Shown here: positions 11,625 through 63,340 of the stretch, piece after piece
Numbering within the stretch: position 1 is the stretch's first letter
Layout: the number at the start of each line of letters is the position of its first letter
Source of the DNA: Bursaphelenchus xylophilus
Taxonomy: Eukaryota; Nematoda; Chromadorea; Rhabditida; Aphelenchoididae
DNA: 64,000 nt
NCBI GenBank assembly: GCA_904066235.2
Contig: CAJFCV020000006.1
Coordinates: forward strand, 4,278,001-4,342,000
Reading direction: 5' to 3'
Program-made: the position numbers and the translations under genes
Notes under the pieces: generated by a model
The model's database searches: none
Seen by the model: only the letters and a program-made list of their open reading frames with translations
What the model was told of the DNA's origin: nothing

Positions 11625-12969
11625 CTAATTTCCCCTCTCGGGCATCTCGAAGTGCGGGTCCTTGACCGTTGTCCAAATAAATCTTTCTCTTCTGGCCAAT
11701 CCGATTCCGGCCACGAGAAAAATCTGAAATTGACAAAATATGATGACAAAAGAGGCGAAACTTGGCGTTCTCAATAAAATCCATAATTGCTTACAATAAG
11801 GATGACCAGAATGATAATTGTAATCATCATGACTCCGGGTGTGATGAGTAATGTATTTCGACGTTCGATTTCGGCTTCAATATTGTAACTCATAGTTTCG
11901 GCTGGGTTGTACCAACTTGGGAGGCAGAATTGAGGGTACCGCCATCTGAAAAATGCAAATAATAGTATCAAAAGACAAAAAAAATCTTTTTGAAAATTTT
12001 ATTCTTGATTTTTGATGACAAGTGAAATACTCAATGGCCAAATCGATTCTCAAAAAGTTTAGATGGTGGTTTACATGGACAGTCGGGTTATCCAACGGTC
12101 ACTGTAGACGAGACATCATGAAGAGAGCGGATACAGTCAGAGAAAAAAAAATATTTTTTACTCCGTGATTTTAGGCACATAAATCGCATCCCCCAATACT
12201 ACCAAAATTTTCTTTATTGGAACCTGTCAAAAAATTTTTTTAGGTTTTCAAATATTACGCTTTTTCAAAAGTGCAGACACATTTTGTCGCGGGCCGCACC
12301 GTGCACAAACCTCCGTTTTGCGGGGTGCGTTTTGAACTTTTGCACTGTGCAACCGGATATCGCTGCGACGCAAGCTTTTCTCAACGGAGCCGGCGCGAAT
12401 TTTTTGAAATTGCACAGTGCAAAATGTTTCGAATCGGATCGTGTCGCGCGGGGAACACGAAACTTGCACTGTGCGGTGCAAAAAAGGCCGGAAAATGTGT
12501 CTGCACTTTTGAAAAAGCGTAACATTAGAGTCATCTGCTACTACGGCTTCCAACTTTTCTACAAAAAATCAAAATTTTCCGGACAGAAACGAACAGGTAA
12601 AACTCTACTCTGTCTCGCAAAACCCTTTCTCGTCTGGACGGCTCCACTCATTTTGTGACCTCTTAAAAAAAACATTGTTGAATATCTCAGCCGTTGCCTA
12701 AAAGCGCGACCTAAACTTTCGGAAGCCGCATCATTTATAGTATGTGGCTAGTTCAGAAAATGCTTCCAAAATTTAAAAAAGAACTCTGAATCCCCCGAAA
12801 GACTCCCTGCTTGTGACACAACCCATGTTGATGCCGAAAAACCTCCTTAAAACCGCCCAACTTGCCCTTTCATTCGGAAACAGTAGTGTCCCGGCTGACA
12901 TGTGCAGTTCGTCTTGGATAAGACTGTGATTGGATCCACCAGGCCAGTTCCCGTATAGTTGACCATCAT
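11625..12969 (-). CDS. Small single-pass membrane protein, unknown family
   Basis: Five-exon model, 148 residues: 12862-12969, 12162-12223, 12075-12101, 11795-11945, 11625-11723. All junctions keep one frame and the lengths sum to 447. Visible features: an N-terminal Cys-rich segment (T-N-C-T-C-Q-P-G-H-Y-C), a segment R-W-I-T-R-L-S-I-W-R-Y-P-Q-F-C, and one transmembrane helix (P-G-V-M-M-I-T-I-I-I-L-V-I-L-I) followed by a short basic tail ending M-P-E-R-G-N. No cleavable signal is seen at the modelled start, so a 5' exon may be missing. One exon is only 27 bp. It converges on the pseudokinase gene (217 bp apart), with an AATAAA on the minus strand near 11445. I do not recognise the family. Confidence 0.55.
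12255..12522. mobile_element. 268 bp GC-rich inverted-repeat element carrying GCAC(A/T)GTGC words
   Basis: Near-perfect 31 bp terminal inverted repeats (TTACGCTTTTTCAAAAGTGC and onward; 12255-12285 and 12492-12522) flank a GC-rich core with three exact copies of GCAC(A/T)GTGC (12342, 12412, 12466), one GCACCGTGC (12296) and a TGTCGC word. It lies in an intron of the small membrane protein gene. Open frames on both strands run through it but are reflections of the repeats. Confidence 0.7.
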
Positions 12970-15842: not shown

Positions 15843-17630
15843 ATGATGGCACAAAAACGGATGGCCGACTTCTATGATACATTCCGAGACTGTGTCCCGG
15901 AGATCAAGCGCATGAAATTGGCGGTGGAGATGCTCAAGCTTTGTGAGGAGGATGTGGAGTTGTTTAAGGAGCTGTGAGTCTTTTACTTTGGATTTTTTTT
16001 TGGATTTTAGGTAACAGATAAGGTTAATCAATATTCTAGGCGAGGTTATCGCCGCACTGGGGTCTTTTTTGTTACGTCAGTTAGAAGACGGACTATTCAA
16101 ACTCATATGTTTATTAAAATACGGTTTTCCTTGATTACGTCAATCTTTGTAATTGATCTTATCCATGGACCAGGCAACGAATTTCTTTCAGACCTTCCCT
16201 TTTGCAACAAAGGTTCTTGAAGAGACGGGGCAAAAGGATGAACCCAGTAGTTCTTGCAGCGCTGGTGGCCAATTTTCCGAAAATGGAGCGGTTTTGCAGG
16301 TACAAAAGTGGAAACGACCTCATCTACGGTAAGCTGATGTTACTCCTCCATATTTTTTGTATTTTCAGACAAAAAGATCGCTGCTTTTGGGGCCTACAAG
16401 ATCCTTTCGGTGAGTGCTTGCAATTCGAACAATTCTACCAGCAGTTTGTCCATGAATATGGAAGCTGAGGCGTCTTTCATTAGTCATGTGTAATATAATT
16501 TTCTCAGGTGCTCTCCCGCCGAATCCGCATTGCATTGTTTGTGCATTTACGTCTATGTGACATCTTTATGAATGAATATGACCATAAGAGCATCTGCTGT
16601 CGAAAGGGCGACACCGTTCTCTTCAACGCCCCGTCTGTCGAGTTTATCCATTTTTATATGCACTTCCCCTTCCAAGCCAAGAATGTACAGTTGAATTGTC
16701 AGTGCAAGCCGAGGAATCGGGTCAGTATTCCAAATGAAGCGAGATGTTTGGCAAGTAAGTGAACATTGATAAATTTTATATTGTACTAGACATTTTGAAT
16801 GACGAAAAACGTGGAGCGATCCCCGCATGTGAACTGTTGAGTCTTTTGGAGAACGTGGAGAGCGTGAAAGCCAGTCCTAAATGCCTCATGCAAGTGCATC
16901 GTCGATTGGAATTGAGCAGAATTCGTTTCGTTGATCGTGCTCTAACAGCGTTGAAGTTCGAAGGAGACGTCTTGAAGATTGTGAATAACACAGGGGAAAA
17001 CTTCAAATTTCATGTTTTGTTACAGTGAGTGATCAAGGATTTACGCCACTATTACTCATTTTTTTATATTACACATGAAATCTTGTCGTTTTTCAGGAAT
17101 ATCAAGCCCAGTGTAGAGCCCAAGACGATAAACTTCAAAGTTGGCTCTAGCAACAGTCGATACCCCACTGGTGGTTTGATAAAACCGTTGAGGTCCCTGT
17201 TGAGCCGGCTGCAAGAAGTCAACCTTGTTTATTGTGTAACAGTAAGTCATTTTCTTTTCATTGATTTGGAATTTAGGGCAAAAAAGCCGAATCTGCATTT
17301 GTTGCACTGTGCAAAGAAGGCAGGACCCTCGCCAAAACTCTCAGAGTCAACTTCCGACTTCGGTCTGTTCAAAACGGTGATGTGGGCAGGCCCGAGATCA
17401 AGGATAAGATCGTCGATGTGATGCGCAAATTCAATTCAAATCTGGCTGCAATCGACCACGAGACCAACTGTGGCTATGGCTTCGACTGGGCCGACGGAAA
17501 TCTGAGTCTTCATGTGTGCTCTGGCTACAATCCGAGATGCGCTTTGGAAAGGAATGACGGCAAAAGAGATGCTCCCGCGGATCGTGCGCGCATTTACAAC
17601 ATCGTGGCTGAGGACCGCGATGACATGTAG
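15843..17630 (+). CDS. Lineage-specific gene family member 1, unknown function
   Basis: Seven exons (15843-15973, 16192-16328, 16369-16409, 16508-16754, 16790-17024, 17097-17241, 17277-17630), 429 residues. No signal peptide, transmembrane helix or known domain is evident. Features shared with its two neighbours: N-terminal A-Q-K-R-M-x-x-x-Y-D-T-F, a basic M-N-P-V-V-L-A-A-L segment, the tiny 41 bp exon for A-F-G-A-Y-K-I, a central C-Q-C-K motif after H-F-P-F-Q-A-K-N, a conserved F-E-G-D-V-L-K-I-V-N-N, and a C-terminal C-G-Y-G-F-D-W-A-D-G-N-L with H-V-C-S-G. The start follows a probable trans-splice acceptor. AATAAA lies near 17692. The last exon contains one GCACTGTGC (17304). The soluble, Cys-containing architecture suggests a cytosolic protein; function is unknown. 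Confidence 0.85.
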
Positions 17631-30072: not shown

Positions 30073-31867
30073 CAGGGGTGGCCACCGGGCCGGGCCGGCC
30101 CGGCCCGGCGAAGCCCGGCCCGATCGGGCCTAAACGGGCCGGGCCTGACATATTTTGAAACGGGCCGGGCCGGGCCTGCTTTTTACCGGGCCGGGCCGCG
30201 CACGTCAAGAAAAAATAAAAGAAAAACGGGCGCCCAATGAAAAAGCCTAGAATTTTTTTTGGCATTCTGCCCGGTGCAAATCCGTTTTAGTCCAAATGGT
30301 TTGCAATATTTAGACATAAAGATTAATAGTAAATTACAAGATATTGATATCAATAGAAAGCTCGAGAGCTGCTTAAGCTAATAGAACCAAAATATACCCG
30401 TAATCGTAGTATTTGACAGTTTTCCATGGCGAAGAATACAACGTCTAAATAAAAGTTTGTATCGACGATACCGACTCAGAGAGCACTGGAAGGAGGTATA
30501 GGCTCCGCGTCAAAAAAATCCTTAAACTGTTCTTCGAGTATCTACATCGGTCCCGTCCCGCTTGATGGGACAGTTTTTTTGATATTCGGCCTTGAAATTT
30601 GCACTATTTTTAGCCTAGCTCGAACCGTGTTCAAAAAATGCGTCACGATGACACCCATTCAGAATGTGTCAGTGGTATAAAAGACAGTTGTATACGACTA
30701 GTAGTACTCCCTAGAGCTCCCATAAAAAAAATTAAGTTAAACATTGTTGTTATGTGCAATTTGGATGACAGATTTTATGAATTTTTTTTCGCTGTGAGAA
30801 CCTTTGCAATGCCCGAAATTTCTTGACGTGCCGCGGGCCTGAGCCATTTTCAGGCCCGGCCCGGTTTTGTCGAAATGCCAAGCGTTTGGCATTCAATGTT
30901 TTCGCGCCGGAAAAATTTTTGGATAGGTTTGTATTTTTAGTATATCAAGTTCTACAATAGTTTATTACTTTATAGTACTTTTTTGCATATATGTTATAAT
31001 ATAAGGTCCAAATTAGAACATATAATACATATAGGATAGTTCTTAGCAGATTTTAGCACACTACAGAGGCGGTAAGATCAAAGGAAAATTTCCAGCTCGC
31101 GCCCTAACCGGGCTTTTACCGGGCCAGGCCGGGCCGGCAAAATTTTGAACCGGGCCGGGCACGTCAAGAAAAAATAAAAGAAAAACGGGCGCCCAATGAA
31201 AAAGCCTAGAATTTTTTTTGGCATTCTGCCCGGTGCAAATCCGTTTTTGTCCAAATGGTTTGCAATATTTTGACATAAAGATTATTAGTAAATCACAAGA
31301 TATTGATACCAATAGAAAGCTCGAGAGTTGCTTAAGCTAATAGAACCAAAATATACCCATAATCATAGTATTTTGACAGTCTTCCAAGGCGAAGAAAACA
31401 ACGTCTAAATAAAATTTTGTATCGACGATACCGAGTCAGAGAGAACTGGAAGGGGGTATAGGCTCCACGTCAAAAAAATCCTTAAACTATTCTTCAAGTA
31501 TCTACATCGGTCTCGTCCCGCTTGATGGGACAGTTTTTTTGATATTCGGCCTTGAAATTTGCACTATTTTTAGCCTAGCTCGAACCGTGTTCAAAAAATG
31601 CGTCACGATGACACCCATTCAGAATGTGCCAGTGGTATAAAAAACAGTTGTATACGACTAGTAGTACTCCCTAGAGCTCCCATAAAAAAAATTAGGTTAA
31701 ACATTGTTGTTATGTGCAATTTGGATGACAGATTTTATGAATTTTTTTTCGCTGTGAGAACCATTGCAATGCCCGCAATTTCTTGACGTGCCGGGCCGGG
31801 CCTGGGATTTTGCCGGGCCGGGCCCCGGGCCTGAAATTTGGAAAAACAGGCCCGTTTGCCACCCCTG
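30073..31867. mobile_element. Non-autonomous hAT-like element, 1.8 kb, 8 bp target duplication
   Basis: Ends read CAGGGGTGGCCACCGGGCC and, inverted, GGGCCTGTTTTT/GGCCCGTTTGCCACCCCTG. They are flanked by the identical 8 bp ACTTCCGC (30065-30072 and 31868-31875), the target length of hAT transposons, and CAGGGGTGG fits hAT ends. Subterminal DNA is packed with GGGCCGGGCC words. The interior holds a direct duplication: a segment of about 640 bp from about 30190 recurs from about 31150 with near identity. No transposase frame is present; matching 62-codon ORFs at 30638 and 31598 merely mark the duplication. Confidence 0.85.
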
Positions 31868-35162: not shown

Positions 35163-38100
35163 TTACGCGACGTAGTGGTACACGCGGTGGTCGTTTTGGT
35201 CGCGTTTTAGGTACTCGCGTTCGATCAGACTCTCGATTCGCTTCTTGATTACACTTGGGTCGGGCATGAAGCGGATCTTCAGCTGATTCGTTACCTGAAA
35301 ATTTAAATTTACTACCCGCAGCGACTGCTATTTGATTTTCACAGCTAATCAGCTCTATTTAGACCAAAAACGTCACAAATTTTTTTCCAAAATTTATATT
35401 ACACTAGGCAAAATTTGATGGGAAATCTCAATTTTCGACGTTCTATTTGGCTATATACCCCCTTAAATTGACTTCTAAGCCCAAATTGCTATTTGATTTT
35501 CACTGGCAATCGACTATCTATTCCAAAAACCCCACAAGATTCTTCCAAAATTTATATTACACTAGGCAAAATTTTTTTGAAAAATCTCAATTTCAGATTT
35601 CTATTTGGCCATATACCCCTTTAAATTGATTTCTAAGCTCAAATTTGTTAAAAAAAAACTAACCTCGGTGATGAGATCATTGTGTAGCGACTTCTTTCTG
35701 GCCTTCATAATCCTCACAATGGCCGCTTCAATCTCATGTTTCCTGTCATCATTGACCTTTTCCCTGGTCTCTTTTCTTTCGGGTTCCGTCTCTCCTCGCC
35801 CCGACACCATCTGAATTTTGATTCTAGTCAGCTTGGAAGTGAATCCATCGTTCACAACGAACTCATCCTCATCCGCCAGCTCCTTTCCGTTTCCTTTGGT
35901 CCGACTCAAGATCCGCTGACTCACTTTTCCCATGGCCAAGGACATCAAAGCCCGCTTAAAGTCCTTGTCTGCAATTTTCGTGGCTTCCCTCAGGTCTTTG
36001 AGGGTGTATTTGGGGCGTTCGTTGAACTTCATCAGGATCACCATGTGGTGGGTGTAGCACTGCAGAATTTTGTGTTCTTCCCGGCGGGCGACGGCGTTTG
36101 AGGGGCCGGCTTCCTGAAGAAAATCAAAATTTAAATTATTCCAATTGTTCCAAACGTCTCCCATCCCCCATTTCACTGTCCAATCACCCTAAAAATTCCC
36201 CTCAACTCACCGAACTATCCATGTTTTGAGCTCCATAAAAGATGGCTTTCACATCCGCAGATCCCAACGCCGGGTTCAACGCGATTCTTCGTCCATTATG
36301 TTTGGATACATAGAATGCCGAGAAGGCGTCGAACGCTTGCTTGGCACTAAGTGGTAATTCACACGGCTCCGACTGATTCGTTGGCCAATAAACCTTCGTG
36401 AGGACGTTCACCGACAAATCAATGTGACTTTGGTCAGTTTCTGGGTTCGCGTTCAAATGGGCGTGGTATTCGTCGGTGATGGTTTCTGAGAGGGCCATGT
36501 CCTTGAACATTCCTTCCAGTTTCGACGTGAATTGGCATCCACATTCGGTCTGAAAATAAAAATTATGTTTTCCGTCGTAAAATGACTATTATTTTGCGTA
36601 AGAATTCTCTCAAATTCCGAAATTTTCTATGAAAACCTTTTCTATTTTTTTTATTTTTAAGATCGCATCATAAACTACCAATATTAATAACGAAAGTCCA
36701 AAAAAATATATCGTATTTTAGGGAAATTTTCTCAGAAATCAAAAATCTTCTCGTCTAACATATTCAATACTATACTATCATTTTATCTGACTTTAGAATG
36801 CAAAAAACACAAAAAAAAATCCCAAAAATTATATAACTTTATATTCCACAATTCTACATTCCCAATTTTTCCTCTCCAAACCCCCAAACTTTCACTATCT
36901 TACACCATCCAACCTCTACTTACCCTTAGCTTGGCGATCATGCTCTTTTCCGAGTCATCACTGACACTTTTTCCGAACAACAATCTCCTGCATAGGTGTT
37001 GTTTATAGTAACGTTCAAAGACATCTTTCTCCTGCAGGAACTTGAAGAGGATCATAGACTTGTCCAGTACTTGCTCAGCATCGTTTTCATTGACACTTCT
37101 TAGACCCTTCTTCAGCTTATCATCAATATAAAGGGACAAATATTCGGGCGATTTCTGGGACAAATTGAAGAAGTAGACAAAGTCCGACTGCATTTTTTGC
37201 TTGATAACCGTATCGTTGCAAAAGGATTCGCTGAGGAATCGGTCAAACAAGTCTTTAAGGTCGATCATTTGCTAAAATGATCCGATTATCTCCAAAATCC
37301 AGTTCAATACGAGCAAATTTTATCTTCTCCTACCTGGATGAACTGGACTCCATTTGTATTCTCATTTTCTTGGACCAGCGATTGCCCTCGAGATCTGAGA
37401 TAACTGGACATGAACTCGGTCATCACTGCGACTCCTTCTGGCACTTTTCGGAACAATTCGTACATGGAGCGGAGCTCTGAGATCTTCTCATTGGTCAGCA
37501 TGAACACCATGCCGGAGTTGGTCATTCCGATGACCGCGCGCATGTGGGCTTCGATCAATTCGGATTTTAGGACCTGAAATTATCTTATTCAGTATTTTCA
37601 GTTACCAAAATTTTCAAAATCCCACAAGAACTCACCTTAATAATCTTGGCTTCGGTTCGTTTGTCCAAATATTTTTCCGCTCTCTGGGCCTCGTCTTCCA
37701 GACACTCATTGACCCTCTTGATATAAGCCGAAGCTGAGTTCTGTTCCAGGAATTTCTGAGCTGCATTTTTGTAGAACTCAGCCGACTCATGGAGGAAGAG
37801 ATTCTCGAATTGTTCTTCATAGTAACTCCTGTCGTCCAGGCCAAGAGCGGCAAGCATTTGGATGGCATTCTTCAAGCTGAGCCACTCAATGGCTTCTTTT
37901 TGGCGTTCTGAGGCAATCATGGACAACAACGTAGCCTAAAACAATATGATAAGTAAAAATTTTTTATATTACACTTGACATCAAGTGCAATATTGGAAAA
38001 AAATAAAGTTCAAATCCTTCTCATCCCCATAAAACCCCTCCCAAAATACCATCAACTGCCTTACCTTTAAATGCGAATTGATAGAGGCATGATCAATGAC

Positions 38101-39258
38101 TTCATTTCGGAACAATCTCAATCCCAAGTTATAAACCTTTTCCACTTTCGCTTGTTCCACGTACACTCTGTCCATGTACATTAAAATATCTCTGATCATA
38201 GTCATAGCCGTTTCATGGTCTTGCCAGACCCTATTTAGTGTGTCTAAGAAGCGATTCCCTCCAATTGATTCTTCCACTTGTCGACAGACCTAAAATCAGG
38301 TCCAAAATTGTTCAAATCCTTCAAATTCGTACCTAAAACACAACAAAAAAAAGAGCAAAAAACTTACATCAAAGGCTAAATGTTGTGTTAGGACCTCGAT
38401 GAGGCCATTATACAGGATTTCTCCCCGTTTATTGAGCACCATATTATATGAATTTCTGTAGAGTTCTTCAAATGATAAACCAGAATGTTTCTTCTGGAGG
38501 ATTTCGTTGAGAGCATTCTTGAGCATGTCCCAAATAGTTTGGACCACATCGTCGTCAATGGTCCTCTGAAATCAACGAGTTTATGATAATTTTCGAGGCT
38601 GTTTTACTTTTTCGAAAATTTTATCCAAATTTTTATCATCAAGGCTCGACTTTCGGGTGCCGGCCGATTCGGAAAGCCGCCGACAACATTTGCTCGCGAA
38701 TCCCAAAATCTTCCGGCAACTTTTTCTTCCCATTCCAAAGCTACGAAATTCGCCGGTTCGCCGACACCTTTTTTTGCATTTCCCCGCCCCTTTTTCCACA
38801 GCAAGTCATAGGAAAAGATGCCAAAGGCACCAAAAAATTGAGTGGAATCAGAAACGAGAAGTTTGTTGTCAGATCCATGGCAAAAAAATTGTCCTACGAA
38901 ATCCAAATTCTGCCTGCACCTAAAATTTGCTTGTCTGCAGGCGAATTTCGATCGTTTTGAAAAAATTTCGACGCGGAACACCAGCCTTATATTATCAATA
39001 TCGGGGCTGATGTTACAATTGGCCAGAATGTCGTTTATTACTACTACTTAAGCAAGATTGGACCAAAAATAGCCGCATAGTGCCGCGAACCAGCTTTGCG
39101 ACATCTTGCACCAAAAAGATATCGCAAAAACTTTCGATTTTACCCACTTTTGAATATTACACTACCTAAATTCCGAAAAATTCAAATCCAAAATAACTTA
39201 CTGGGAATTGTCTAATCTTCGGTTTACTGGCTACATGTCGATTCGGTTGTCTACTCAT
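35163..39258 (-). CDS. cul-3: Cullin-3, complete
   Basis: Scaffold of CRL3 ubiquitin ligases, binding BTB-domain adaptors at the N-terminus and RBX1 at the C-terminus. Nine exons on the minus strand: 39202-39258, 38368-38565, 38065-38289, 37636-37935, 37334-37573, 36924-37271, 36211-36549, 35664-36113, 35163-35294; 2289 bp, 762 residues, the normal CUL3 length. Diagnostic segments: [57 protein letters not shown], and the neddylation region [11 protein letters not shown] with its Lys, then the C-terminal H-Y-V-A. All domains are intact. The first intron is about 640 bp. The assignment is certain; the orthologue symbol follows worm usage. Confidence 0.96.
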
Positions 39259-41453: not shown

Positions 41454-41708
41454 CTGAAACGGAAATTATATTGAACTAGGTTAGAAATTGAAGAACTGAT
41501 AATTTCTCGCGGTCTCAAAGACTCAAAATAAATCAGAATTGCCGGATCCTCCAACAAATGGCCGGAAATCAATCAAACGAATAAAAGTACCTTACAATTA
41601 ACAAAAAAATGATCAATATTCACCGTCAGGTCAACGGAAAGAAAAACTTATCAAAAGACACCGTAAAAATTTGTTTTTATTCACAATTTTCTCAATAAAT
41701 AGATTCTC

Positions 41709-43142: not shown

Positions 43143-46100
43143 ATGCTGGCAAGTACAAGTCAAGGTAAGATGTTTTGATTCTCGACACGTTTGGAGTATT
43201 ATCTTCACTTTGTAAGGGCTTTTTACAAAAGTTTTGCCCTTTTTTCGATCGATTTTATCTGTTTTGTAAACAACCAACGTGACTTGTTTAACCCCCTCTT
43301 TTCTAGCGTATGTTCCGTTGTCCGCGAAGATCGATCGTTGCGCGGTTTGTGAGGATGCGGCGACAGGAGTTCATTACAATGTCATGTCATGTTTTGGGCA
43401 AGTGACTATGTAGTTGAAAATCACAGAAATGTCACGTGAAATTCTTATCTTATCTTTTGTCAATCTAATCCAAGTCTTATTAGTTCATTTTTGTTCCGGA
43501 TTTTTAAAGATTTTTTTCAAAAATTCCGCCAAGAAAGATTCAAATTAGAGTGAAAAAAAAATTTTTCATAAATTTCATCCTTGTAATTTCAGTTGTAAAA
43601 CCTTTTTCCGTCGGGCAATTGTGAATTCCCGTCGATATTACTGTGAGAAAGAGAATACCTGCGATGTGACCCAGCGAAGTGGCCGACAGGGCTGTAAATC
43701 CTGCCGATTACAAAAGTGTTTCGATGTGGGGATGAATTTGAAATGTAAGGAAGACTGTAATCATCATCATTGATGACCTTTTTTAATTAAAAATTTTATT
43801 GATTTTTTAAAAATTTCCAGGTTTAAAGCCGCGTCGAGACCGAAATTACTCCAATTCGAATGGGTCGGTAATCAAAGTCATCAAAGTTTCGAATTCGGCG
43901 ACAGTCAAAAGCCGGCGACAAAGTGATAACCCGAATACCACGACATCGGCGGGTAATGAGCATTATTCCCAAAAACTTTTAAAATTAATCAACGACTTGA
44001 CGAGGACGGATCAAACGTTGCGGAGGAAGAAAATAGGATGGCTGGCCGCGTTGGAGGAGGGGAAGAAATTAAACAAGGAGATCTCACAGGTATGTGGATG
44101 ATAAGTCTGTGAAGTTTACATATAGATTGCGATTTAGACTTTACATAAAAGGTTTGTAAAATACGTGCTCTGTAACTTGCGCCGAATTTTTATTTCCTCC
44201 AGAAGAAGGAGCAAAAAATTGGTGCTCAAACATACTTTAGTATACATTGGTATAGTATATCAAACATGCTATTATATATCTTGGTATAGTATATCAAACG
44301 TCCTATAGCACATACTATACATGGTATACTGTAGCATATCTTGGAATTCAAAAACTTTTTTAAAGAGTTAAGAATTTCAACCAAAAATCTTGGCCTTTAA
44401 CAATTCACTTCTAATATTATATTTTTCGTTTCCAGTACCCCTATCCAGTCACTCCACCCACGGACATTCGGATTGTCGAGAAAGCAGACATGGCAACCGT
44501 AACATCCTCTGAACTTTACTGTCTCCTCGAATGGGCCAAGAGTCTTCCATTCTTCTGCAAATTGCAAGCTCACATCCAGGCAGCCGTTCTCCGGAGATTC
44601 GCGGTTTACCAGGTCATAATCGAGCAAGGGGAGGTGACCGCAAAGAGTGGTTACAATGACTTGTGGGTTCTGCCGAATGGAACGGTCCTGCCGAAGGATG
44701 TGAACAACCTTCCACTGAGTAGTAAAGTAAGCATCTTTTTGATCAAAAAGCTGCTAAATATTTGAGTTTTTTGAAAACTTTAGGCATATGTTTCCAGGCA
44801 CAAATCTCAGAAGGACGGGCATGGCGTCAGGATAAACTGTACCGCCAGATGACCGAGATCTGCCTGGATGAAGTTGCCATGCCCATGCGTCGGCTGTCGT
44901 TGATCCCAGAAGAGCTGGTCACTTTGAAGATCATCATGTTCTGTCAATGCGGACTTAGGGTGCCTCGTAAGTAAAGTTTTTGCTATGGAAATAAATGGGC
45001 ATTGTTTTCCGGCTTGTCTCGGCAAACTGAGTATATTAACGTAAGGGCACGTAAGACGGCAAACTATTGATTTCTGCAAATTTCTAACAAGGGAAGTCGT
45101 TCAGATCGCAAATGAACTATGACATGAGACCTGTGTGGTTTTATAGTCACATACTCTACTATATCGAATATAAAGGCATTTTTGCGTCTGGGCCCCCGCG
45201 GCCGAGAAAATCGACTATGAAGTTTCGCAAGAAGAGAGCGCCGAAAAAGTCCTCTCTCCGAAAGCAAACCCAAACAGCTGCCCAGTTGGCCGAGTGGAAA
45301 GAGCGCTCGTCTAACGAATCTTCTTTTGGGTCGGGGGGCTGGGTTCGATTCCTTTCACCTGCAATGTAAAGGGTAAGACTACTGTGTACACTACAGTATG
45401 CGTAAAAAAATTTTTTTTGTGTTTTTCCAATTTTATGTAGATTTGTGCCTTTTCTTGAGACAAAAACAAACAAATTTAGTCGACTTTTCTCCAGACTGTT
45501 AAAAATGGCATGACTTGGAATGGTAATCGGAGAGCTTCCTGCGGCTACGCCGCAAGGCTATCGGAAAGTTGTCGAAAGGAAGTAAAGTGATTTTTTATCA
45601 CTCTTTGATTTTGTTTGGACATGGGATTGGCGCCTAAAAATGTTGTGGCTCTCCTCTTGGCCGAGTTCGGAACCGGGAACTCCGAAGACGCGACTTACGA
45701 GGAGACTCGGATGGCAACCCGACTGAAGATTCTGCTGTCTCAAGCGGCGGAAGACGCGAATATTGAGGTTCAAACGGACGATGAGATTATGGACAACAAT
45801 AGCAGTGGGGACGAGAATGACGATGACAGCGACTTCGAATTGGACGTTGAAGGCCATCAAGAACGTGATGAAAGAGGAACTGGAGAGATATGGATGGGAC
45901 GAAAATTCGTGTCGCTAGATCAAATACGAGCAGTCAAACGATATTGGCTATCGTCGAATCGATCGGTTGGCGCTGTCAGGAAACGGTGCAGGTTCATTCG
46001 AAGCGACTACTACTGGAGAAAGATGACGGACCTGTGGAAGAAAGGTAAGGCTACAGTTTGTTGATGATTTTTTTTGTAGATGAAGTTGTCGCAGGTCGGC

Positions 46101-47105
46101 GTGTTCGCAGTTCCGAACTCGGCCAAGAGGAGAGCCACAACATTTTTAGGCGCCAATCCCATGTCCAAACAAAATCAAAGAGTGATAAAGAATCACTTTA
46201 CTTCCTTTCGACAACTTTCCGATAGCCTTGCGGCGTAGCCGCAGGAAGCTCTCCGATTACCATTCCAAGTCATGCCATTTTTAACAGTCTGGAGAAAAGT
46301 CGACTAAATTTGTTTGTTTTTGTCTCAAGAAAAGGCACAAATCTACATAAAATTGGAAAAACACAAAAAAAAATTTTTTTACGCATACTGTAGTGTACAC
46401 AGTAGTTTTACCCTTTACATTGCAGGTGAAAGGAATCGAACCCAGCCCCCCGACCCAAAAGAAGATTCGTTAGACGAGCGCTCTTTCCACTCGGCCAACT
46501 GGGCAGCTGTTTGGGTTTGCTTTCGGAGAGAGGACTTTTTCGGCGCTCTCTTCTTGCGAAACTTCATAGTCGATTTTCTCGGCCGCGGGGGCCCAGACGC
46601 AAAAATGCCTTTATATTCGATATAGTAGAGTATGTGACTATAAAACCACACAGGTCTCATGTCATAGTTCATTTGCGATCTGAACGACTTCCCTTGTAAG
46701 ACCCGAACGGACAATAAATTTCTACTTTTTAGCGCTATAACTATGCTGAAATCTTAAATTTTTCATTCTTCATTTTCAGAGAAAACCCCCGATGACGTCA
46801 CTATATTCAGAAGTTCAATTGACGAAATCATCAAAGCATTGTTTGAATTTTACAAGCAAAGCAATTTGGAGATGTACGAAGGTCAGTAAGAGAAGTCCTA
46901 ACTACACAAACACTCTCATTGCCCGTATTTTACAATTACTACAATTTCAGAGCGTTTCGGAAACATTTTGCTGCTGATCTCCGGGATCGTCGCCGCCGCC
47001 ACACCTACTCTGGAGAGCTTTCGAATTCAGAGTTTGTTCGACTTTGTCTCCTTCGATAACATTGCCAATTTGTTGTTGTTTCAGAAAACTGAAGATCGGG
47101 GATGA
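43143..47105 (+). CDS. Nuclear hormone receptor
   Basis: Eight exons: 43143-43164, 43307-43397, 43593-43744, 43821-44089, 44436-44726, 44798-44966, 46780-46881, 46951-47105; 1251 bp, 416 residues. Ligand-regulated transcription factor of the nuclear receptor family. The DNA-binding domain starts near residue 18 with [13 protein letters not shown], has the P-box region C-F-G-C-K-T-F-F-R-R, then [11 protein letters not shown] and C-K-S-C-R-L-Q-K-C; all eight zinc-binding Cys are present. A basic hinge follows (K-P-R-R-D-R-N-Y) and a helical ligand-binding-like region with [16 protein letters not shown]. The intron at C-F-G^C uses a GC donor (GCAAGT). The 1.8 kb intron 6 contains a foldback element. 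The subfamily cannot be set. Confidence 0.93.
45279..45364 (+). other. tRNA-like Pol III promoter segment (left arm)
   Basis: TGGCCGAGTGG fits the Pol III A box and GGTTCGATTCC, 55 bases on, fits the B box exactly; a T8 run follows near 45405 as a possible terminator. The acceptor ends do not pair and no regular anticodon arm forms, so it is a tRNA relic or SINE-type head rather than a working tRNA. Confidence 0.6.
45615..46064 (+). CDS. Element-encoded open frame, 149 codons, unknown
   Basis: The frame starts in the left arm and runs through the unique centre. It begins [16 protein letters not shown], has an acidic middle ([17 protein letters not shown]), and ends in a basic, helical-looking part ([14 protein letters not shown], then [14 protein letters not shown]). 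That last part resembles DNA-binding helices of transposon proteins, but I cannot name a family. GTAAGG near the end could be a splice donor. It is more likely an element or captured gene fragment than part of the host receptor. Confidence 0.45.
   Translation: MDMGLAPKNVVALLLAEFGTGNSEDATYEETRMATRLKILLSQAAEDANIEVQTDDEIMDNNSSGDENDDDSDFELDVEGHQERDERGTGEIWMGRKFVSLDQIRAVKRYWLSSNRSVGAVRKRCRFIRSDYYWRKMTDLWKKGKATVC
46421..46506 (-). other. tRNA-like Pol III promoter segment (right arm)
   Basis: Mirror copy of the segment at 45279-45364, with the same A-box and B-box words on the minus strand. Confidence 0.6.
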
Positions 47106-49261: not shown

Positions 49262-50419
49262 TTATTTAGGACAAGTAATCTTGACGCCAGCTCCCTTCAA
49301 ACAGTCGCAAGACGACTTGAATCGCTGCTCGGATGACAAATGAAGTTCCTTTTCGCATTGCTCGAAGGCGGATTGGATCTTCTGGTCTGGTGGGGCAAGA
49401 GCGCAACTGAAATTCGATTGAGAGATTGGACAATATGTTGGCGGTCTTACCGAAGTTTGACAGCACAGTTGGCTGAGTTTCTACGTCCACGATGACCGCC
49501 CTCCAAGGCCTTCATGGCACAGCTGTCAACGCACCACAAATATTGACCCATCTCGGCAGGGGCTTGGCCTGGTTGCTGTAAGTGGAATAGTGATTATTCG
49601 GGGTGTCCGTTGAGGATTAGATTTGAATTTAAAACTATTAAAACCCTTAAAGCTTAGTTCAAAAAATATACGATCAAATTAAGATTATTGTAGATTTGGC
49701 ATCAAGAAGAATCGCCGCGATAAAAGCTGTTAGTATTTTCAAAAAGAACAGTCTTTTCTTGCAACTGTGACCAAAAAATGATTCGTGAACTCCACCTATA
49801 AGCCTCCAAAACTTACATCCGGAAGTTTAGAAACTTCCGCCTTCACTTCAGCCTCGGTCATCTCCTTCATGACCGGGATGGTCAAGTTCTTGGGATGAGC
49901 ATCGTTCGTGCATCCGACCGGGCCGGCCTTTCTTTCCACACATTTCTCCAGCTTTTCCATATCCCTCTGCTCTTTGTCCAGACATTGTCGGATCTTCGCT
50001 GCGTTTCCAATCTTCTTGATGTAAGGCTCGCATTCATTACTACAAAAAATTTTCGCTATCATGTTTTTATAGAGCCAGAAAAGTCTTGGAGAATTTCTCA
50101 CCTCGTTTTACACTTTGCCGTCTTCTCCATCAGCACTTTGGAGCATTCGTCAATGTCTTTGCACTTACATTGTGGTGCTGTGGTGAACTGCTCTTTCGCG
50201 GCGTACTGAAAATTTATTGTTAGAGATGTATTTGCCTCCTATAGGGCTTTTACAATGCAAAACCCCAATTTTAATTTCTGCACAGTGCAAATCAACAAGC
50301 AATCAGCTTTTGAAAACTATGCCAAGAGAAAGAGTAAAAAACTCGGTTTTTTTGCTAACCCTTACCGTGATCGAGGCGTAGCCTAGAGTGAGAAGAACGG
50401 CAAAGGTGTACTGATTCAT
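49262..50419 (-). CDS. Secreted cysteine-rich protein
   Basis: Five exons: 50366-50419, 50102-50205, 49817-50039, 49451-49575, 49262-49406; 651 bp, 216 residues. Exon 1 is a signal peptide (M-N-Q-Y-T-F-A-V-L-L-T-L-G-Y-A). The mature part is Lys/Glu-rich with about 16 Cys in pairs: C-K-C-K-D-I-D-E-C, N-E-C-E-P-Y-I-K-K, Q-C-L-D-K-E-Q, L-W-C-V-D-S-C and S-S-C-D-C-L-K-G. The helical, Cys-paired pattern resembles worm secreted proteins of the DUF19 type, but I cannot confirm that. A GCACAGTGC word lies in the first intron (50280). A CTCTC-rich motif block lies upstream near 50715-50765. Function unknown. Confidence 0.78.
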
Positions 50420-56000: not shown

Positions 56001-59000
56001 ATGTTAGGAATCGCAGATATACTTTTTAGTTGGATACACTTTTCGCCCGCCGATATTTCCTGAAATTGTTCGGTGATGGTCAAAGTGCGCGACCATCCCC
56101 TGATTCACCGCGAAAGTCTGGAGGAATGGGGAGGGATTTAGGTTACTGTAATTGGGGCTGCGAGTTTCTGTGGGGAATTTTGGGGAATTTTGAGGAAAAA
56201 AGTTTTTTTTCGATTTTACGGATTTTGTTGGGCGAAAATGTAATTTTTTAGGCTTCCATACCGTATAAGAATCTGTGTTTTAATCTTTATAATGCTTTAT
56301 TGTTGCACTGTCACCATAAAATTTATGATCTCTCACTTCAAAGTCATCATTTTTTAATCTTCGTTTTTAGGCTTTTTCTTTTTCAAAAATTGTAAATTTT
56401 TTTATTTTGATGTGATGATCAAACATCATTTTATGTTTTTTACAACCTTTACTACTTTGTCTACCCATATTTGATGCAAAATTTATAATTTTCGCCTTTT
56501 ACCCATCAAAATCATCATTTCCAAATTTTCGTATTTTAGAGTTATCTGTTCTTCTAAAGTCATCATTCTGTTTGCATAAGACTTCCTCTCAAAATGCTCT
56601 ACGGTATTCAAAAACACTTCATACTCTATCTACCCATATTTGATATCAAATTTCCATTTTATTCAAATCTCCCTTCACAAACTTTTTTATTTTTTTTCAA
56701 ATGTGAATTTTTGCAAAATCCAAAGTAAATTAGACGCCTTTAGACAGTAAATAAGAGAGTTTACAGTCCTTCCTGGGAGTGGTCACTCCCTTTTACCATC
56801 TCCTTTCGATCTATACAATGAAACAAGGATCCTGTTTCCCCTCCAATCGCTCGGCGACAATGGAGTTTTGTTCATCGAGTAGGCGTCAAAGGTCCTGCAG
56901 ATTGTCATCATATGACCTGTGGTTCCGTCTGATTCTATTTTGGTCACATTTTAACTTGTAATTTGTTGTATTTTCGAGATTTTTTGTCTTTTTCATGGAT
57001 AACATGACTAAAAATTTTGATTTCTTAAAATAAGGTTATTTCGATGTCTAACATAAGATTATTTTGCATTTTCTGGTGTCGTAAGAAATGATGTTCAACT
57101 GCTAATATCATTAAATTTCCCTATCAAACAAAAAAATCGCAAAAAGATCTGGAATTTTGTCAATAACCCCCGTTTTTAATGGGCTTATATCTTGCGAACC
57201 ATTAATGGGCACACGATATAGGTTATATGGACTGAGAGCTTATTGTGTGTGCTTTACGACGAGCTAAACGTTTTTGAAAATATTGAAAAAGTAGGGGTAA
57301 AAATTGAAAACTAAAAAAAATTAATTTTGGCCTGATTGTTTCAAAATTGTCCATAAAAAGTTGTTAAATAGTACTGTAAAAATTATTTTTCTGTCAGTTA
57401 AACCCTCATAAGGTACTGATCAACTAGTAATTTTTTACGTATTTTAAAAATCGCTTCCATTTCCTCCAAAATCCGATGATTAATCACCACCTTTCTTCAC
57501 AAAAATAAAAGTCCTGTCGCACTGTTGTATAATATCACCCTGTTTCTTCCCGCCGCTACATTTTACGGCGCCGCGCGGATTTTTTTTGTCATTTCAAAAA
57601 AATTTTTTTGGGGATAAGGCGCGCAAAGTGGGGAGATACGAAGAAGGAGAGGGGAGATAAAGAACAAATGTTGTTTCGTAAAGGGGAACTATCCGTTTTT
57701 CTGTAAGTTTGGCATGAAAATAGCGATTTTTTTTTTGTGGGAAATCGGTGTCTAATTTTGAGATTTTTTGGATTTTTGATGACTTTTTTTGTTGATTTTC
57801 TTGGCGAAAAAAGCCGGAGTAATATTTAACCATATATAAAATTTTGTTTTAAATCGTATTTTAGGCCGGTTAAAGAAGTTTTGTCTCATTTTTGGGCAAT
57901 TTTGTAATTGCCCAAAAAATTGTCTCAATCTTCCTCTAAATTGTTTTCATTCTGTAGGTTATTAGTTTTCTAATAAATACATGCTATTGAAGGCCGTATT
58001 TTACCTCTTCTCCATCTTAAATCTCTCATCTTTTGTCTCCACTAGCCCCTCTAGGATAAGATAAAAACCCAAATTTTTGGACTAATTTCCCCCTCAGGTC
58101 CCTCGATATGTCGTGAGGACATCGCTCAACGCCTCCACATCCCCGTTGAAGCCGCGGCCCATCAAATTCTTGAGGCCAATACGGCCAATTCTTGGCCGGA
58201 ACTCGAATGGAAAACTTGAGACAGATCTGTAAGTTTTATCGCAATTTTTTAGCGATTTTTCGGCGTATTTTATATAAAAATTCTTTCAGCGACAAGCCCT
58301 CAACTTCATCGCCTGCGGTCGCGAATTTCGGAAATGAGAAATTGAAGCAAAAAATCACCGAAAATCCCATAAATTACCGCAAAAATCGACCGGTTCCGTC
58401 GACCACCAGCGTCCCGCAACTCAACCTGATCCAAAAACAATTCGATTTGATCATCAACAATGCCGACTTCCGGCCCCGCGGCGACTGCACAGTGCGCCGC
58501 GTGAAAAATGATGATCGCACCGTGCAGGTGCCCGCGAAACGGCTTCGCACAGTGCACAGAAAAGAGCAAAATGGGAAATGCACAGTGCAAAACGAAACAA
58601 GAAATGCGAATTGCACTGTGCGGAAATTTGAGAAAAAAGGATTGCGCACAGTGCACAACGATGAACAGAGAATGGATTTCACAGTGCAACAAGAACAGAC
58701 AAACACTGACTGCACTGTGCGAAAGGACTCTTTCAAAACTGACTGCATTGTGCAGCCAAAAATCAGAAATGGCCGCTGCACAGTGCGAGAGCGCAGCAAC
58801 AATTGCGACACATCGCCCAAGCCCTCGACATCAATTCCAACTTGCACGGTGCAACCAACATCCTCTCCAAACATCCGCACTGTGCAACCATCAATTTCCT
58901 CAACCTCGCGCACCGTGCTCGTCGCACCGGATGGAAAACGCACAGTGCAACGCGTCTCGTCGCGTGACACAAACACGTCACTGACCGCTGATGGAATCGC

Positions 59001-59004
59001 GTAA
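53074..59004 (+). CDS. Tentative gene with periodic x-T-V-x repeat exon
   Basis: Proposed exons: 53074-53208 (M-S-K-I-T-S-Y-L-V-A-P-P-N, after a trans-splice-like TTTTCAG), 58098-58228, and 58290-59004; 981 bp, 326 residues. Junction phases fit and the last exon is open to a stop at 59004. That stop overlaps a good donor (GC^GTAAGG at 59001), so the gene may continue. The last exon encodes about 14 units of 10-11 residues with consensus [C/R]-T-V-[R/Q/H]-x7, built on a DNA word. The second exon is also open in another frame that gives C-R-E-D-I-A-Q-R-L-H-I-P-V-E-A-A-A and then stops. The minus strand is open for 200 codons across the same array. Whether this exon is translated at all is unproved; the 4.9 kb intron is long for this genome. 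Confidence 0.35.
53209..58097. other. 4.9 kb putative intron or intergenic DNA
   Basis: No supported exon inside. It holds a mariner-type MITE (55172-55459), a GC-rich block with overlapping frames on both strands (54470-54960) that looks more like a promoter than a gene, low-complexity AT DNA around 56300-57400, and a hairpin TTTTGGGCAATT/AATTGCCCAAAA near 57890-57920. Confidence 0.45.
55172..55459. mobile_element. Mariner-type MITE, 288 bp
   Basis: Terminal inverted repeats of about 27 bp begin TTAGGGTGTCCCATAAGTCT and are flanked by TA on both sides. The TTAGG-x-x-GTCC-x-x-AAGT pattern is that of mariner ends. No coding sequence inside. Confidence 0.85.
58487..58948. repeat. 33 bp periodic array of GCAC(A/T)GTGC
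   Basis: Fourteen copies of a 9 bp core start at 58487, 58517, 58547, 58580, 58613, 58646, 58679, 58712, 58745, 58778, 58844, 58877, 58910 and 58940. Every step is 30 or 33 bp except one of 66 (a lost copy at 58811). Nine are exact; five have one mismatch (for example GCACCGTGC, GCATTGTGC). The 21-24 bp between cores show no common sequence. Confidence 0.95.
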
Positions 59005-60110
59005 GGAATTCGGTGTCGTCGGTTGTTTCATTTTCCGCCCGCACTCTTTTCTCTCTCTCTTCTTGTCTTGATTTCCTTCTTCGTCGCGCTCCGAGTTCAG
59101 TGGGTGCGACAGGTTTCCGAGAAAGTGCACTGTTTTTTTGTTCATTTCGCGACAACTGTGTCGTCGGCGGACTTCCGCGTTTTTGCACTGTGCGCTGTCG
59201 AATGAGAAGATTGATGGGAGTTTGCACTGTGCGAAGGGGTGGATGCACTGTGCAACTTGGGGATCCCTCTTCCGCTCAGTGCAGCGACAAACGCTTGCTT
59301 TGTCGCCTTGGTGATTCAGGGGATCGCTTTTTTGACCTTGCGATGCAAATTTCTCATCGCCAAAATGATTTGGCTTGCACTGTGCAAAAATTTCTTCCAT
59401 TCGCGACATTCCGAATGTTCAATTTTCCGCACAGTGCATTCAAAATCTCCCCCCGTCTCGATTGCACTGTGCACTGAAAACAAACAAAACCTCGGGCGGC
59501 GATTGGCTGTCGCAGCGACAGAAATCACTTCCTGAAAACATTTCTGTCACTTCCAGAAGCGCGACAAGCCCTCCCTTTTGTCGCGCACTGTGCTTTTGAT
59601 GGGTCCTTCGGATCGTTTGCCGCCAATTGGATTTTTGTCGCGAACAAAGAAAAAAGGGAAGCGCGACAATGAACACAGTGCAATCAATCCACACGCACCA
59701 TTTTTCAAACCCAAATTTCGGTCCAAATTCGGGGGGAAGCGACAAAATTCGGGGAAGGAAGCGACAAAAATCCCATTTTTTGTTTTTGAGGCCGAAAAAC
59801 AAATCAAGTGCGATTTCATGGGATGTCGCGGGACTGCACCCTCCTTTCCTTCCGCTGAAATGCAATTTCACGCACCGTGCATTTTGTCGCATTTTGTTTT
59901 TGGGACTCGAAGGGGAGAAGAGATTTGGCCGCACCGTGCGGGGGAAGTTTGATTGCACTGTGCGGGAAAATGTTGATGAAAAGAAGGAATGCACAGTGCG
60001 TTTTGAAGTTTTTTTGCGCTTTTTGTTTTTGCACAGTGCAATCCTTATTTTTCTTCCATTTCCGACTGCACAGTGCAAAATAAAACCTCCGAAACGCCTC
60101 CAAATCCATT
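59005..60110. repeat. Unphased continuation of the GCAC(A/T)GTGC cluster with GCGACA words
   Basis: At least eleven exact copies (59185, 59224, 59245, 59377, 59429, 59464, 59585, 59955, 59991, 60031, 60068) and three variants (59673, 59872, 59931) occur in both orientations with irregular spacing and mixed frame. The word GCGACA or TGTCGC recurs about a dozen times between 59140 and 59890. Overlapping open frames here mix phases and I do not call them genes. Confidence 0.85.
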
Positions 60111-60328
60111 GTTTTTGATCCAAATTTAATTCACAACCATCTGTACCGATATTCTCGTTCCTCCAAATGTCATTTTATGTCATCGGACCATCCAATCCAA
60201 CACGGAAATCGCCCAATTCCAATGCATATGGGCTCTAGGTCGTTTGGGAAATTGATTCCGTCCAAAAAAGTTTTACCGTCGCACCGAAATCCCTCTCCCT
60301 CCAAAAGCGAAAAAAAACAATTTCTCCT

Positions 60329-60449
60329 GTGACGGATCAAAGGCATTTTGGAGGATATATGGGGGAGAAGAGGGGGACATCTGGCCGAAATGGGCTCCGC
60401 TCTCCTGACAAAACTTTCGGATCGCCTGGGATTTACATTGCGGAAGGTG
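60329..60449 (+). other. Possible exon, frame unresolved
   Basis: A stretch before a GTGAGT donor near 60449 is open in more than one frame (one reads L-L-T-K-L-S-D-R-L-G-F-T-L-R-K, another G-G-Y-M-G-E-K-R-G-T-S-G-R-N). It could be a further exon of the repeat-bearing gene, but no acceptor fixes the frame. Confidence 0.25.
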
Positions 60450-63340
60450 AGTGGGCCAAAAGTCGGAGGAGTGGACCGCGTTTTTACTCGGTCATATCAA
60501 TTTCGAATTCTTTTGAGGGAAATTCCGGGGTTTTTGAAGTTTTTACCCTTAGGGCATAAGGTTAAAATTCCGTTTTTTGTAGATAAAGTCTTACCAGTTT
60601 GTATACAGTTGTCTACCACGTTTTTGAAATTCTTCACACCTTTTGAAAAATCAATTTTGGGTATTGCCACGAAAACTTGAATTTCTTGGCATTGCTTTTT
60701 TTGCTCTCTAACAATTTTACCGCAATTTTTAAACCATTTCCTTGCATTTCCTATACAGTAACCTCCAAAATCAGCAAAAAAAGTTGAGAAAATACTGTAA
60801 AAATTCCCTACCGTCTAAAAACCCCTATTACTCTCCTGTACCAAAAATAACTTTTGATTACCTGGTCTTTTGACATTCCCTGACGTCTACAGGATTACCT
60901 TTATTTCCTCTATTCGCCCGATTTCACAACATCTTCCCTCTGCCCAAACATTGGCCCTTTTGTGGGCACGATTACGATTACCACTTTTACATTAGGGCCT
61001 TTGCTTCGACCGTCTTGAAAGGATTAGTTACCTAAGGGTCTAATCACAAGACTTACTGTCCTCATTTATTTCTAATTCCATTACTTTTTCGGCGGTTAAT
61101 TACTCGTTTTTGTGGGGCCGAAGAATGGCCTAAGGGCATACATGGTATTTGGAGTTTTACAGGTATTTCTAGTATACGTCAGGCGGCGTGGTAATCAGCA
61201 AAGTACTTGGTAATGCAGTTACTGTAAAAAGTTTGGGGGGATTCTGTTTTTGAAGGTGTTTTCGGGGGAAAAAATTTCAAATTTCGAAAATGTTCCAAGA
61301 GCTTTTGCTTTTCTTTCAGTTTCTAAATCACGCCCGAACTTTGAAAACCAAAGAACAGTAACAACTGTGACACAGCACCTAAGGCACTATTTTTTCGACA
61401 AAGTGCGGCTTGTTTTTTCCGGTTCATAACTTCGGTTCTAGACGTTTTCTGTTATTTTCGGTAAAAAGGGATAAAAACGGGCTCAAAAATGATGATTTTA
61501 AGGATAAATCTAGACTGAAATTCCCTTAGGCAATCATATTTTTGAAGATAAAGGCAGTTTAAATTTTAAAAAATTAGGTTACAACCCGTTTGTTGGCGCT
61601 TTTAAACAGTTTATCAGTATGTTATCAATGCTATATGCCGGCCGTTTGTTTGCTTCCTGAACCAACTTTTCCAGACTATGAAAAAGCTATGATTTCCAGC
61701 TGAAACTCTGCTGTTTGACCCCGTCCATTATCACACAGTTTGTCATAATTTGTAGGCAATTTAGGAACTGTAGGGAGCAGGTGTTAATTTTGCTGTTGAA
61801 TTTGGTACGGACCTTGGAAAAACTGCTGGTTTATATGTAAAGCTATACAATTTATGCCTTATCAAGCTTTGTCATCCAATTTTATTTGTATAGTTTTATT
61901 TTCTACTACATTTCAGGCTTTTTACTTTCAGAAATTTTGAGGTTTTTATATTACCTTAGAGATTACCCCAAATTTTTAAAATTTTGCCATAATTATTCAA
62001 AATTCTCGTTTATTAAGATACCTTGTTTCTCATTTCTTTCCGACCTGTTTGTGAGTGTAATAACAATTGCCGCGATATTAGAAAGCCAAAAAGACGGATC
62101 GTATTAACCGGTAAAGAGAGTAATATCGAGAGAATTAGAGACCGAATTAATCTTTCTTTCACTGTCCAAAATGGCTGATTGATGGGATTAGGAAGAAAAG
62201 AAAAGCATAGTACAGTTTTAAAGTCACTTTTCACAATGCATTGGATCATAAAATAGGGTGTTAAAAGTATAAATATGATGACATTTTCCATTTTTTTGCA
62301 CATATTTAGGCTTGAAGTTATATAAATTGCAAAAAAAAAAGATTTTTCTCCACTCAAAAAGTCAAAAACTCGCTTTTTAATACAGTAATCTGAAACAAAA
62401 CTACAAAAGAGTAGCGTATTAAGAGAGGGGAGATTTGAAGAGCCAAACAAAATGGAGAGAAAGGCGAACGAAAGCCAATGGGAATTTTTATAGCGGTCTC
62501 TCTTGTATGCACAAATGTCTGGCGAATTGCACAATTTATTGTAACCCTTTTACGGCCATCACTGCGCAATCCTCAGCATACGGCAATCTTGGACTGCAGG
62601 AGAAATTAAAGGCAACGTATTTTACGTCTTTCTTATAAACTTTCGAGGTGATTTTGGGGTTATTGATTCTTATAGTGATAGACGCATAACATTTCTAGCA
62701 ATAAAGCAACTAGAAACCTTGTATATATACAAAATAAATCGCAGAAAATCGAATATTTTCGATTGAAAAATCTTGACGATTTCTTGAAAGCCTAAGCCAA
62801 GGTTTCTGGATGTGTTTTAAAGTCTGAATCTTAATTGTTACTAAGCTTGATCAGATCAAAATCCAATGCATTTTTGTTCACTTCCTAGGTATTCTTGATA
62901 CAGTAAACCCCGTCAAATGAAAATAGTGCCTAGAGATGATCCTACGAAAGTCTAGCCAATCCAAGCGGCACTTACTGCGGCTTTTCCTCACTCCGACAAT
63001 CCTCATGTTCTACGTGAGCTCACGTCTGATCCTTCGCTTCTAAATCAAATAATAAACAAGTAATAATGACAATCATCTCACTTTTCTTTTTTTCCTCCTC
63101 TTTTCCTCAATCATTTGTTTCTAGAGATCGACAATTGGTCTCTCGGAGTGTTTCGTATTCTGCTGAAGAACTGTTTCATCACATTACTCATCATATTGCA
63201 AGAAAGATGCACCTGTACTCGAAAAGAGGCGAAAATTTCACGTATTGTTAATTCCGGAGATTAAAGAGCTCTGCTGAATCGGAGCGCTCAAATTTTTACT
63301 ATAAATTTGGCCACAAACTTGGAGCTATGGCCATTTTTTA
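60450..63340. other. AT-rich DNA, no gene seen
   Basis: Nearly 3 kb with frequent stops and scattered short frames on both strands. The frame at 62013-62534 (-) is Phe/Ser/Leu-rich, as expected from AT-rich noncoding DNA. No repeats with clear ends were found. Confidence 0.5.

Follow-up and report, generated by a model that had tools for sequence, protein, structure and literature searches.

A short odd palindrome iterated in arrays and transposon-like elements of the Bursaphelenchus xylophilus genome: a candidate dimeric binding site

We analysed a stretch of 64,000 nucleotides of the nematode Bursaphelenchus xylophilus (GenBank assembly GCA_904066235.2, contig CAJFCV020000006.1, forward strand), referred to here as the window, which corresponds to positions 4,278,001-4,342,000 of the contig that we call C6. 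Near its right end an initial annotation had described an array of the near-palindromic 9-mer GCAC(A/T)GTGC. That word is a recurrent core, although the true unit is an odd palindrome of 11 bases, YGCACNGTGCR, rather than the 9-mer. The core GCACNGTGC of this 11-mer occurs 41,616 times in the 78.25 Mb genome, compared to 178 occurrences of the reversed word. Its carriers are transposon-like miniature inverted-repeat transposable elements (MITEs), minisatellites, and arrays with unrelated spacers. In both the MITEs and the arrays, the constraint rests on the DNA word, i.e. the core, and not on the spacer or the central base. Judging from the sequence, we lean towards a reading in which the window array is a homotypic array of sites for one abundant, dimeric DNA-binding protein, with mobile elements and tandem repeats having spread the site; we give this somewhat better than an even chance. 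The array and the cluster that continues it are as follows.

58486..58949, no strand assigned: array of 14 copies of the 11-mer (counted as the 9-mer with at most one mismatch), with steps of 30, 33 and 66 bases and mutually unrelated spacers.
59184..60077, no strand assigned: the same cluster continued beyond the open reading frame, irregularly spaced; a search of the genome finds only the region itself.

Allowing up to one mismatch, we recovered all 14 reported copies of GCAC(A/T)GTGC at 58487-58948, nine of them exact and five with one mismatch, three of the five differing just by a C or G at the centre. The steps are also as described, namely 30, 30, 33, 33, 33, 33, 33, 33, 33, 66, 33, 33 and 30 bases. 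The spacers had been called unrelated, and the mean pairwise score of the 12 spacers is indeed that of shuffled spacers (z = 1.0). The annotation had reasoned that spacers aligning well at the DNA level would make the array an ordinary decaying minisatellite; they do not align in this way, and Tandem Repeats Finder called no 33-base repeat there even at the lowest score. By whole-unit similarity, the window array is thus not a minisatellite. Nor is it a MITE as judged by terminal inverted repeats and dispersed copies: inverted pairs around it (57600-60800) are short, at most 33 bases, and a whole-genome similarity search with the array and downstream regions, which skips very common words, matched the downstream region only to itself and gave, for the array region, a single partial match of 58 bases (81%) besides the locus itself.

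It had also been proposed that conservation follows the DNA word more than the encoded peptide, and this is borne out. The Val codon is GTG followed by C in all 14 units, the Thr codon varies freely at its third base, and the cluster runs past the open reading frame, where 13 further copies of the intact core are located at 59185-60076. Specifically, the region 59184-60077 holds 11 A/T-centred copies (the one at 59585 has T in place of the outer R), two C-centred copies (59872 and 59931) and two copies with one core mismatch (59274 and 59673). The peptide description was less exact. The first residue, said always to end in GC, does so in 13 of the 14 units (the codon at 58678 is TTC), and the tetrapeptide [C/R]-T-V-[R/Q/H] is present in 11 units, with three departing from it. 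The interpretation of the array given in the annotation is, overall, partly supported.

The assembly has 78,253,340 bases in six contigs of 12.1-15.1 Mb, which we took as chromosomes, and two contigs of about 15 kb. Genome counts were 30,796 for GCACWGTGC versus 74 for its reversed form, and 10,820 for GCACSGTGC versus 104. Both outer bases, Y and R, are present in 29,421 of the 30,796 GCACWGTGC copies. With up to one mismatch, YGCACNGTGCR was found 52,001 times, versus 2,407 for the reversed word. From these values we estimate about 10,000 one-mismatch copies above chance and a ratio of intact to broken copies of roughly 4 to 1, assuming that the outer bases of S-centred copies are intact as often as those of W-centred ones. 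Our first sample of 254 kb consisted of the window and 19 stretches of 10 kb, one of which (L009) was chosen for its cluster. It contained 277 intact 11-mers, while three Markov shuffles contained none, which excludes chance; one-mismatch 11-mers numbered 53 with 12 expected by chance. Among odd 9-mer palindromes in 244 kb of this sample, summed over strands, the word reached 410, the next of mixed composition, TTCASTGAA, 118, and AAAAWTTTT 294. Clusters of at least four copies numbered 16 in the first sample, and by extrapolation there are thousands of such arrays in the genome. The annotation had doubted a general role should the 9-mer not be clustered elsewhere; it is clustered genome-wide.

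Chromosomal location was evaluated in two subsamples, each defined by the word plus four arbitrary bases. One gave 53 places and the other 143, of which the 93 on contigs C1-C4, a complete set, were used. After merging places within 20 kb, the left, middle and right thirds held 13, 5 and 32 of 50 places in the first subsample (p = 2e-4 for the middle third) and 22, 5 and 33 of 60 places on C1-C4 in the second (p = 1e-5). The right third is therefore richer than the left in both (32 vs 13 and 33 vs 22). Most of the scored MITE places, judged by eye, also lie in outer thirds. All six chromosomes carry copies in their outer thirds, and the dosage or single pairing-site role suggested in the annotation is unsupported. 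Two of the clusters (L028 and L034) sit between splice-like borders recognised by eye, and arrays thus probably occur in putative introns. As a separate observation, a 160-base satellite occupies an entire 10 kb stretch at 10.0 Mb of C1 (L011), and contig C8 opens with the same satellite (L027:1-257) followed by a dense run of 11-mers. Of two diagnostic primers for B. xylophilus, this satellite matches one at 22 of 22 bases and the other at 21 of 22.

One MITE family of about 290 bases (L030:887-1165 and L036-L055) has TA-flanked inverted ends and seven 11-mers in each element. Searching with L030 yielded 886 candidate places; 40 of them were scored, with 114 matches including the query. The 20-base terminal word of the family, at up to three mismatches, is found 1,758 times in the genome versus 8. 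Counting two ends and seven words per element, approximately 6,000 of the 41,616 copies can be attributed to this family, an estimate that covers one MITE family only. Among the 15 arrays tested, 11 keep spacer similarity (z 4.0-41), and plain minisatellites are seen at L009 9.3 kb (z 39) and L028 (z 41). Spacers are unrelated in the window exon (z = 1.0), the window downstream region (-0.6), L009 1.5 kb (-2.1) and L018 0.7-1.2 kb (2.2). The arrays span a range from recent tandem repeats to those retaining just the word. We also observed a 1.15 kb inverted structure at L009:6221-7374, whose two arms of about 320 bases are 81% identical and contain six and five copies, and further inverted-repeat elements in L033 and L030, with ends like CAGTCTGTCGGGAAAATAATG, that adjoin 11-mer clusters.

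In order to compare core and spacer within the MITE family, we aligned 22 copies, consisting of 20 near-full-length copies of the 114 matches and both halves of the query. The eight core positions are off consensus in 1.8% of cases (22/1211), compared to 14.9% for spacers (577/3877), 16.6% for the central base (25/151) and 14.6% for the outer positions (44/302), where Y or R is nevertheless retained in 42 of the 44 changes. Transitions account for 282 of 514 spacer changes (21 copies). Of 154 sites in the alignment, 149 are free of gaps and 132 of these are intact, whereas neutral change at the spacer rate would leave about 23% so. Divergence is 9.9% in the right terminal repeat, versus 1.9% in the core; the two ends pooled diverge by 17.8%, a value affected by several copies without a left end, so that the right end alone was used. 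Private changes, i.e. those confined to a single copy, were counted at 17/1155 in the core, 118/3223 in spacers (ratio 0.4) and 17/524 in the right terminal repeat. Across five arrays including that of the window, divergence is 0.5-4.2% in the core (4/191, 1/192, 2/144, 3/120 and 5/120) versus 19-55% in the spacers (103/480, 186/480, 70/360, 108/300 and 165/300), with units admitted at up to three mismatches in the eight core positions, a rule that favours intact cores. A hypervariable centre, indicated by identities of 0.56 at the centre versus 0.82 in spacers in mixed alignments between loci, was rejected, given the 16.6% versus 14.9% of the MITE alignment; we attribute the value of 0.56 to tandem units having been aligned out of register.

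Of 360 steps of at most 60 bases, 83% fall at 20-42 bases with a broad mode at 24-33. None between intact copies is under 19, a floor that holds for intact copies only, since steps of 7 and 17 appear once each when one 9-mer mismatch is allowed. The annotation had suggested protein binding on the same face of the helix. We did not find a specific signal for this: in 209 steps outside the plain minisatellites and the window array, vector length was 0.16-0.18 at every tested period from 9.5 to 12, and the nominal signal at 10.5 bases (p ~0.001) is not specific. Outer bases within a copy are nearly independent, C with G being somewhat rare (11/237). In 174 neighbouring pairs outside plain minisatellites, centres are complementary in 29.9% versus 30.9% after shuffling, and outer pairs in 53.4% versus 57.6%, which argues against self-pairing of DNA or RNA. 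Observed to expected CpG is 0.91-1.56 in the sampled sequences, i.e. not depleted, and CpG or methylation decay was accordingly rejected as the cause of the Y/R and centre variation. In cluster DNA, TA is halved (0.48 of outside) and CG is raised. A second word, GCGACA/TGTCGC, is enriched 17-fold in the clusters of the window and L009-L027 (79 vs 4.7 expected, with the 11-mer masked) and mildly constrained in the MITE (8.6% vs 16.0%). Spacing, composition and lack of complementarity would fit a site bound by a dimeric protein that covers some 19-20 bases.

The mechanism that we propose is as follows. Each YGCACNGTGCR would be one site, with two half-sites GTGCR flanking a free central base. 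Its reader would be an abundant homodimeric, sequence-specific protein needing about 19 or more bases from site to site; we infer both this protein and its dimeric nature. MITEs and local tandem duplication would spread the sites, and the DNA between them would then drift while the sites stay, possibly because an array works by its number of bound sites. At the window locus, the array would have come to lie in a candidate exon, where it appears to be held in frame. That such arrays organise or silence chromatin on the chromosome arms is a tentative guess of ours.

Several points weigh against this proposal. No binding protein is known for the word, and none was sought. It is difficult to believe in selection able to hold about 40,000 redundant sites. 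Just four of 15 arrays have unrelated spacers (z < 2.5), the admission rule for array units favours intact cores, and the 19-base floor holds for intact copies only. The outer regions are unevenly dense: among stretches that were not picked for content, four of five at 0.2 Mb have no A/T-centred copy. Further inward density is patchy too, with none in four of five stretches at 5 Mb and 0 to 28 in those at 10 Mb. Finally, private core changes are less depleted than shared ones, which are almost absent; this suggests that some of the constraint was exerted while elements were active, and some, of weaker effect, after insertion.

The main rival, which we consider unlikely, is that the word is maintained by a DNA process such as motif-dependent repair or biased gene conversion, in which case individual sites need no function. 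For instance, the bound word may suppress meiotic breaks; a break would then fall on the mutant allele, with the intact allele as the template for its repair. Copy number and redundancy, which make per-site selection hard to credit, speak for such a process, as do the similar preservation of the word in MITEs and minisatellites and the roughly 4 to 1 ratio of intact to one-mismatch copies. For HIP1, the highly iterated palindrome of cyanobacteria, a model based on mismatch repair has been put forward (PMC4390886). However, divergence at the centre and outer bases is close to that of the spacers, so rewriting of whole units is not seen, private core changes are depleted just 2.5-fold, and no enzyme is known.

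We give a lower probability to the 11-mers being transposition sites, bound by a transposase or a helper in the internal arrays of MITE families, with copies elsewhere as remnants. A MITE family with TA-flanked inverted repeats and seven copies per element, a terminal word found 1,758 times versus 8, and the near absence of shared core changes all speak for this. That one family, however, would explain only about 6,000 of 41,616 copies by estimate, and the tandem arrays L028 and L034, which had no systematic check for MITE ends, are equally constrained. No second full copy of the window array exists in the genome search, the inverted pairs near it reach at most 33 bases, and the MITE core stayed intact while the right terminal repeat drifted (1.9% vs 9.9%).

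It is improbable that the array is an ordinary decaying minisatellite, translated by happenstance, with the word kept by selection on the peptide. All window steps are multiples of 3, and 11 of the 15 arrays with the word keep spacer similarity, most clearly L009 9.3 kb and L028. The window spacers, however, are unrelated (z = 1.0) with no tandem repeat called, Val is GTG in 14 of 14 units while the third base of Thr is free, the cluster extends past the open reading frame, and the word is kept equally in 290-base MITEs. Least credible of all is an element acting at the RNA level through stems between neighbouring palindromes in transcripts: any two copies are able to pair, but complementarity between neighbours is no higher than in shuffled pairs (174 pairs).

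The annotation had further suggested that the binding array also became coding. We evaluated the following candidates.

58098..58228, + strand: candidate upstream exon; the frame that joins the array is open and scores poorly.
58229-58289, + strand: candidate 61-base intron preceding the array exon, with splice-like borders read by eye.
58290..59004, + strand: candidate exon with the array in one open frame, codons from 58291, stop at 59002-59004.

It is plausible that the array exon is translated, and its coding status is that of a candidate. The best sign of translation is that all 13 steps of the window array are divisible by 3 (P ~4e-6 given the step lengths found at other places, uncorrected for the thousands of clusters in the genome). 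Less favourable is codon usage, where the array frame is the best of six by a small margin (0.064 vs 0.030 with the word masked; the table was built from 2,092 codons of open reading frames chosen by eye). In the upstream candidate exon another frame, which stops at 58217-58219, outscores the one that joins the array. Several frames carry overlapping long open stretches around the array, to which the shortage of TA within clusters contributes. Pfam domains were not found in the candidate exons. A search for homologues of the candidate exon gave 769 word-sharing candidates and none that scored, but a kinase-like control exon likewise gave 0 of 19, and the collection probably does not include the proteins of this nematode, so the empty result is uninformative.

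The other features of the window related to the word are listed below.

59100..59890, no strand assigned: second word GCGACA/TGTCGC and shorter forms among the 11-mers, found by eye; enriched in sample clusters.
12248..12529, no strand assigned: small inverted-repeat element, 38-base ends 94.7% complementary, with four 11-mers at 12295-12475.
17303..17313, no strand assigned: isolated 11-mer inside the open reading frame 17277-17627, which may be a coding coincidence.
50279..50289, no strand assigned: isolated copy of the 11-mer.

Elsewhere in the window there is an inverted repeat of 599 bases at 99% identity (45083-45680 and 46103-46701), probably a recent duplication or mobile element, and a direct repeat whose two copies, each of about 710 bases, are 93% identical (30161-30862 and 31120-31825). 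Two adjacent cullin-like genes lie on opposite strands at 32806-33969 and 35604-38571; cullin domains were tested and called in the minus-strand gene only, and the other gene was judged by eye. No Rfam family was found in the window.

The nearest case of an iterated palindrome is HIP1 (GCGATCGC), which is of even length and associated with methyltransferases in cyanobacteria (PMC4390886). Both are short palindromes repeated genome-wide far beyond chance, and the nematode word, at 41,616 versus 178, is over-represented as a HIP1-like highly iterated palindrome should be. It differs in its odd length, its free centre, its animal host, its steps of mostly 20-42 bases and its avoidance of chromosome middles. 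In carrier and host group, the nearest system is that of the Caenorhabditis m1m2 motif pairs, which are bound by HIM-17, occur in thousands of copies in CERP2/CELE2 MITEs and also outside them, and include 1,458 divergent and 2,566 tandem pairs in non-accessible regions (PMC9757741). Both are MITE-seeded nematode motifs, and the present word is likewise found within MITEs and in single-copy DNA, as in a network of the HIM-17 type. However, m1m2 pairs two different motifs, whereas here one palindrome occurs seven times per element and in long arrays, with about ten times as many copies.

The pairing-centre motifs of C. elegans (HIM-8, ZIM-1/2/3) are also clustered short motifs recruiting a protein near chromosome ends (PMC9071541), but they are 12-base, chromosome-specific and at one end (PMC9071541, PMC8455136), whereas here one word lies in both outer thirds of all six chromosomes. 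The motif of programmed DNA elimination (SFE), with 28 and 10 precise sites in two Caenorhabditis species (PMC13370393), was ruled out by copy number, which is in the tens of thousands here.

Internal or subterminal arrays of one short word in inverted-repeat elements are known from the TnpA sites of En/Spm and from Drosophila Foldback; in contrast, most copies here are by estimate outside the one counted MITE family, and other arrays show the same constraint as that family. Three GCACWGTGC in a row were found at 4 viral and 42 prokaryote loci, which by eye are short tandem repeats with 3 to 11 GCACNGTGC per locus. We found no report of the word in the nematode literature when searching the letters GCACTGTGC and TGCACTGTGCA with 'nematode', judged by titles and leaving A-centred letters unsearched, nor any report of YGCACNGTGCR in topic-level searches of open-licence full text.

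More broadly, we regard it as possible, without thinking it probable, that this is a highly iterated palindrome of a eukaryote with a dedicated, active system that keeps it, either a protein binding the DNA or a bias in repair or conversion. About 40,000 copies would be preserved while their surroundings drift, MITEs and minisatellites would be the carriers, the chromosome arms would be marked, and some exonic copies would, at the DNA level, constrain the encoded protein. Should the word be a binding site, a single protein should recognise near-identical targets by the tens of thousands in the genome of an animal, and the word would offer a simple handle on chromosome-arm marking in a nematode group that, to our knowledge, has lost piRNAs. 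Should repair or conversion keep it instead, eukaryotes would have an example of a DNA word that maintains itself. In both cases, the core, centre, outer and spacer positions would provide tens of thousands of built-in controls for separating selection from biased conversion, and the word would also show a DNA-level constraint shaping coding sequence.
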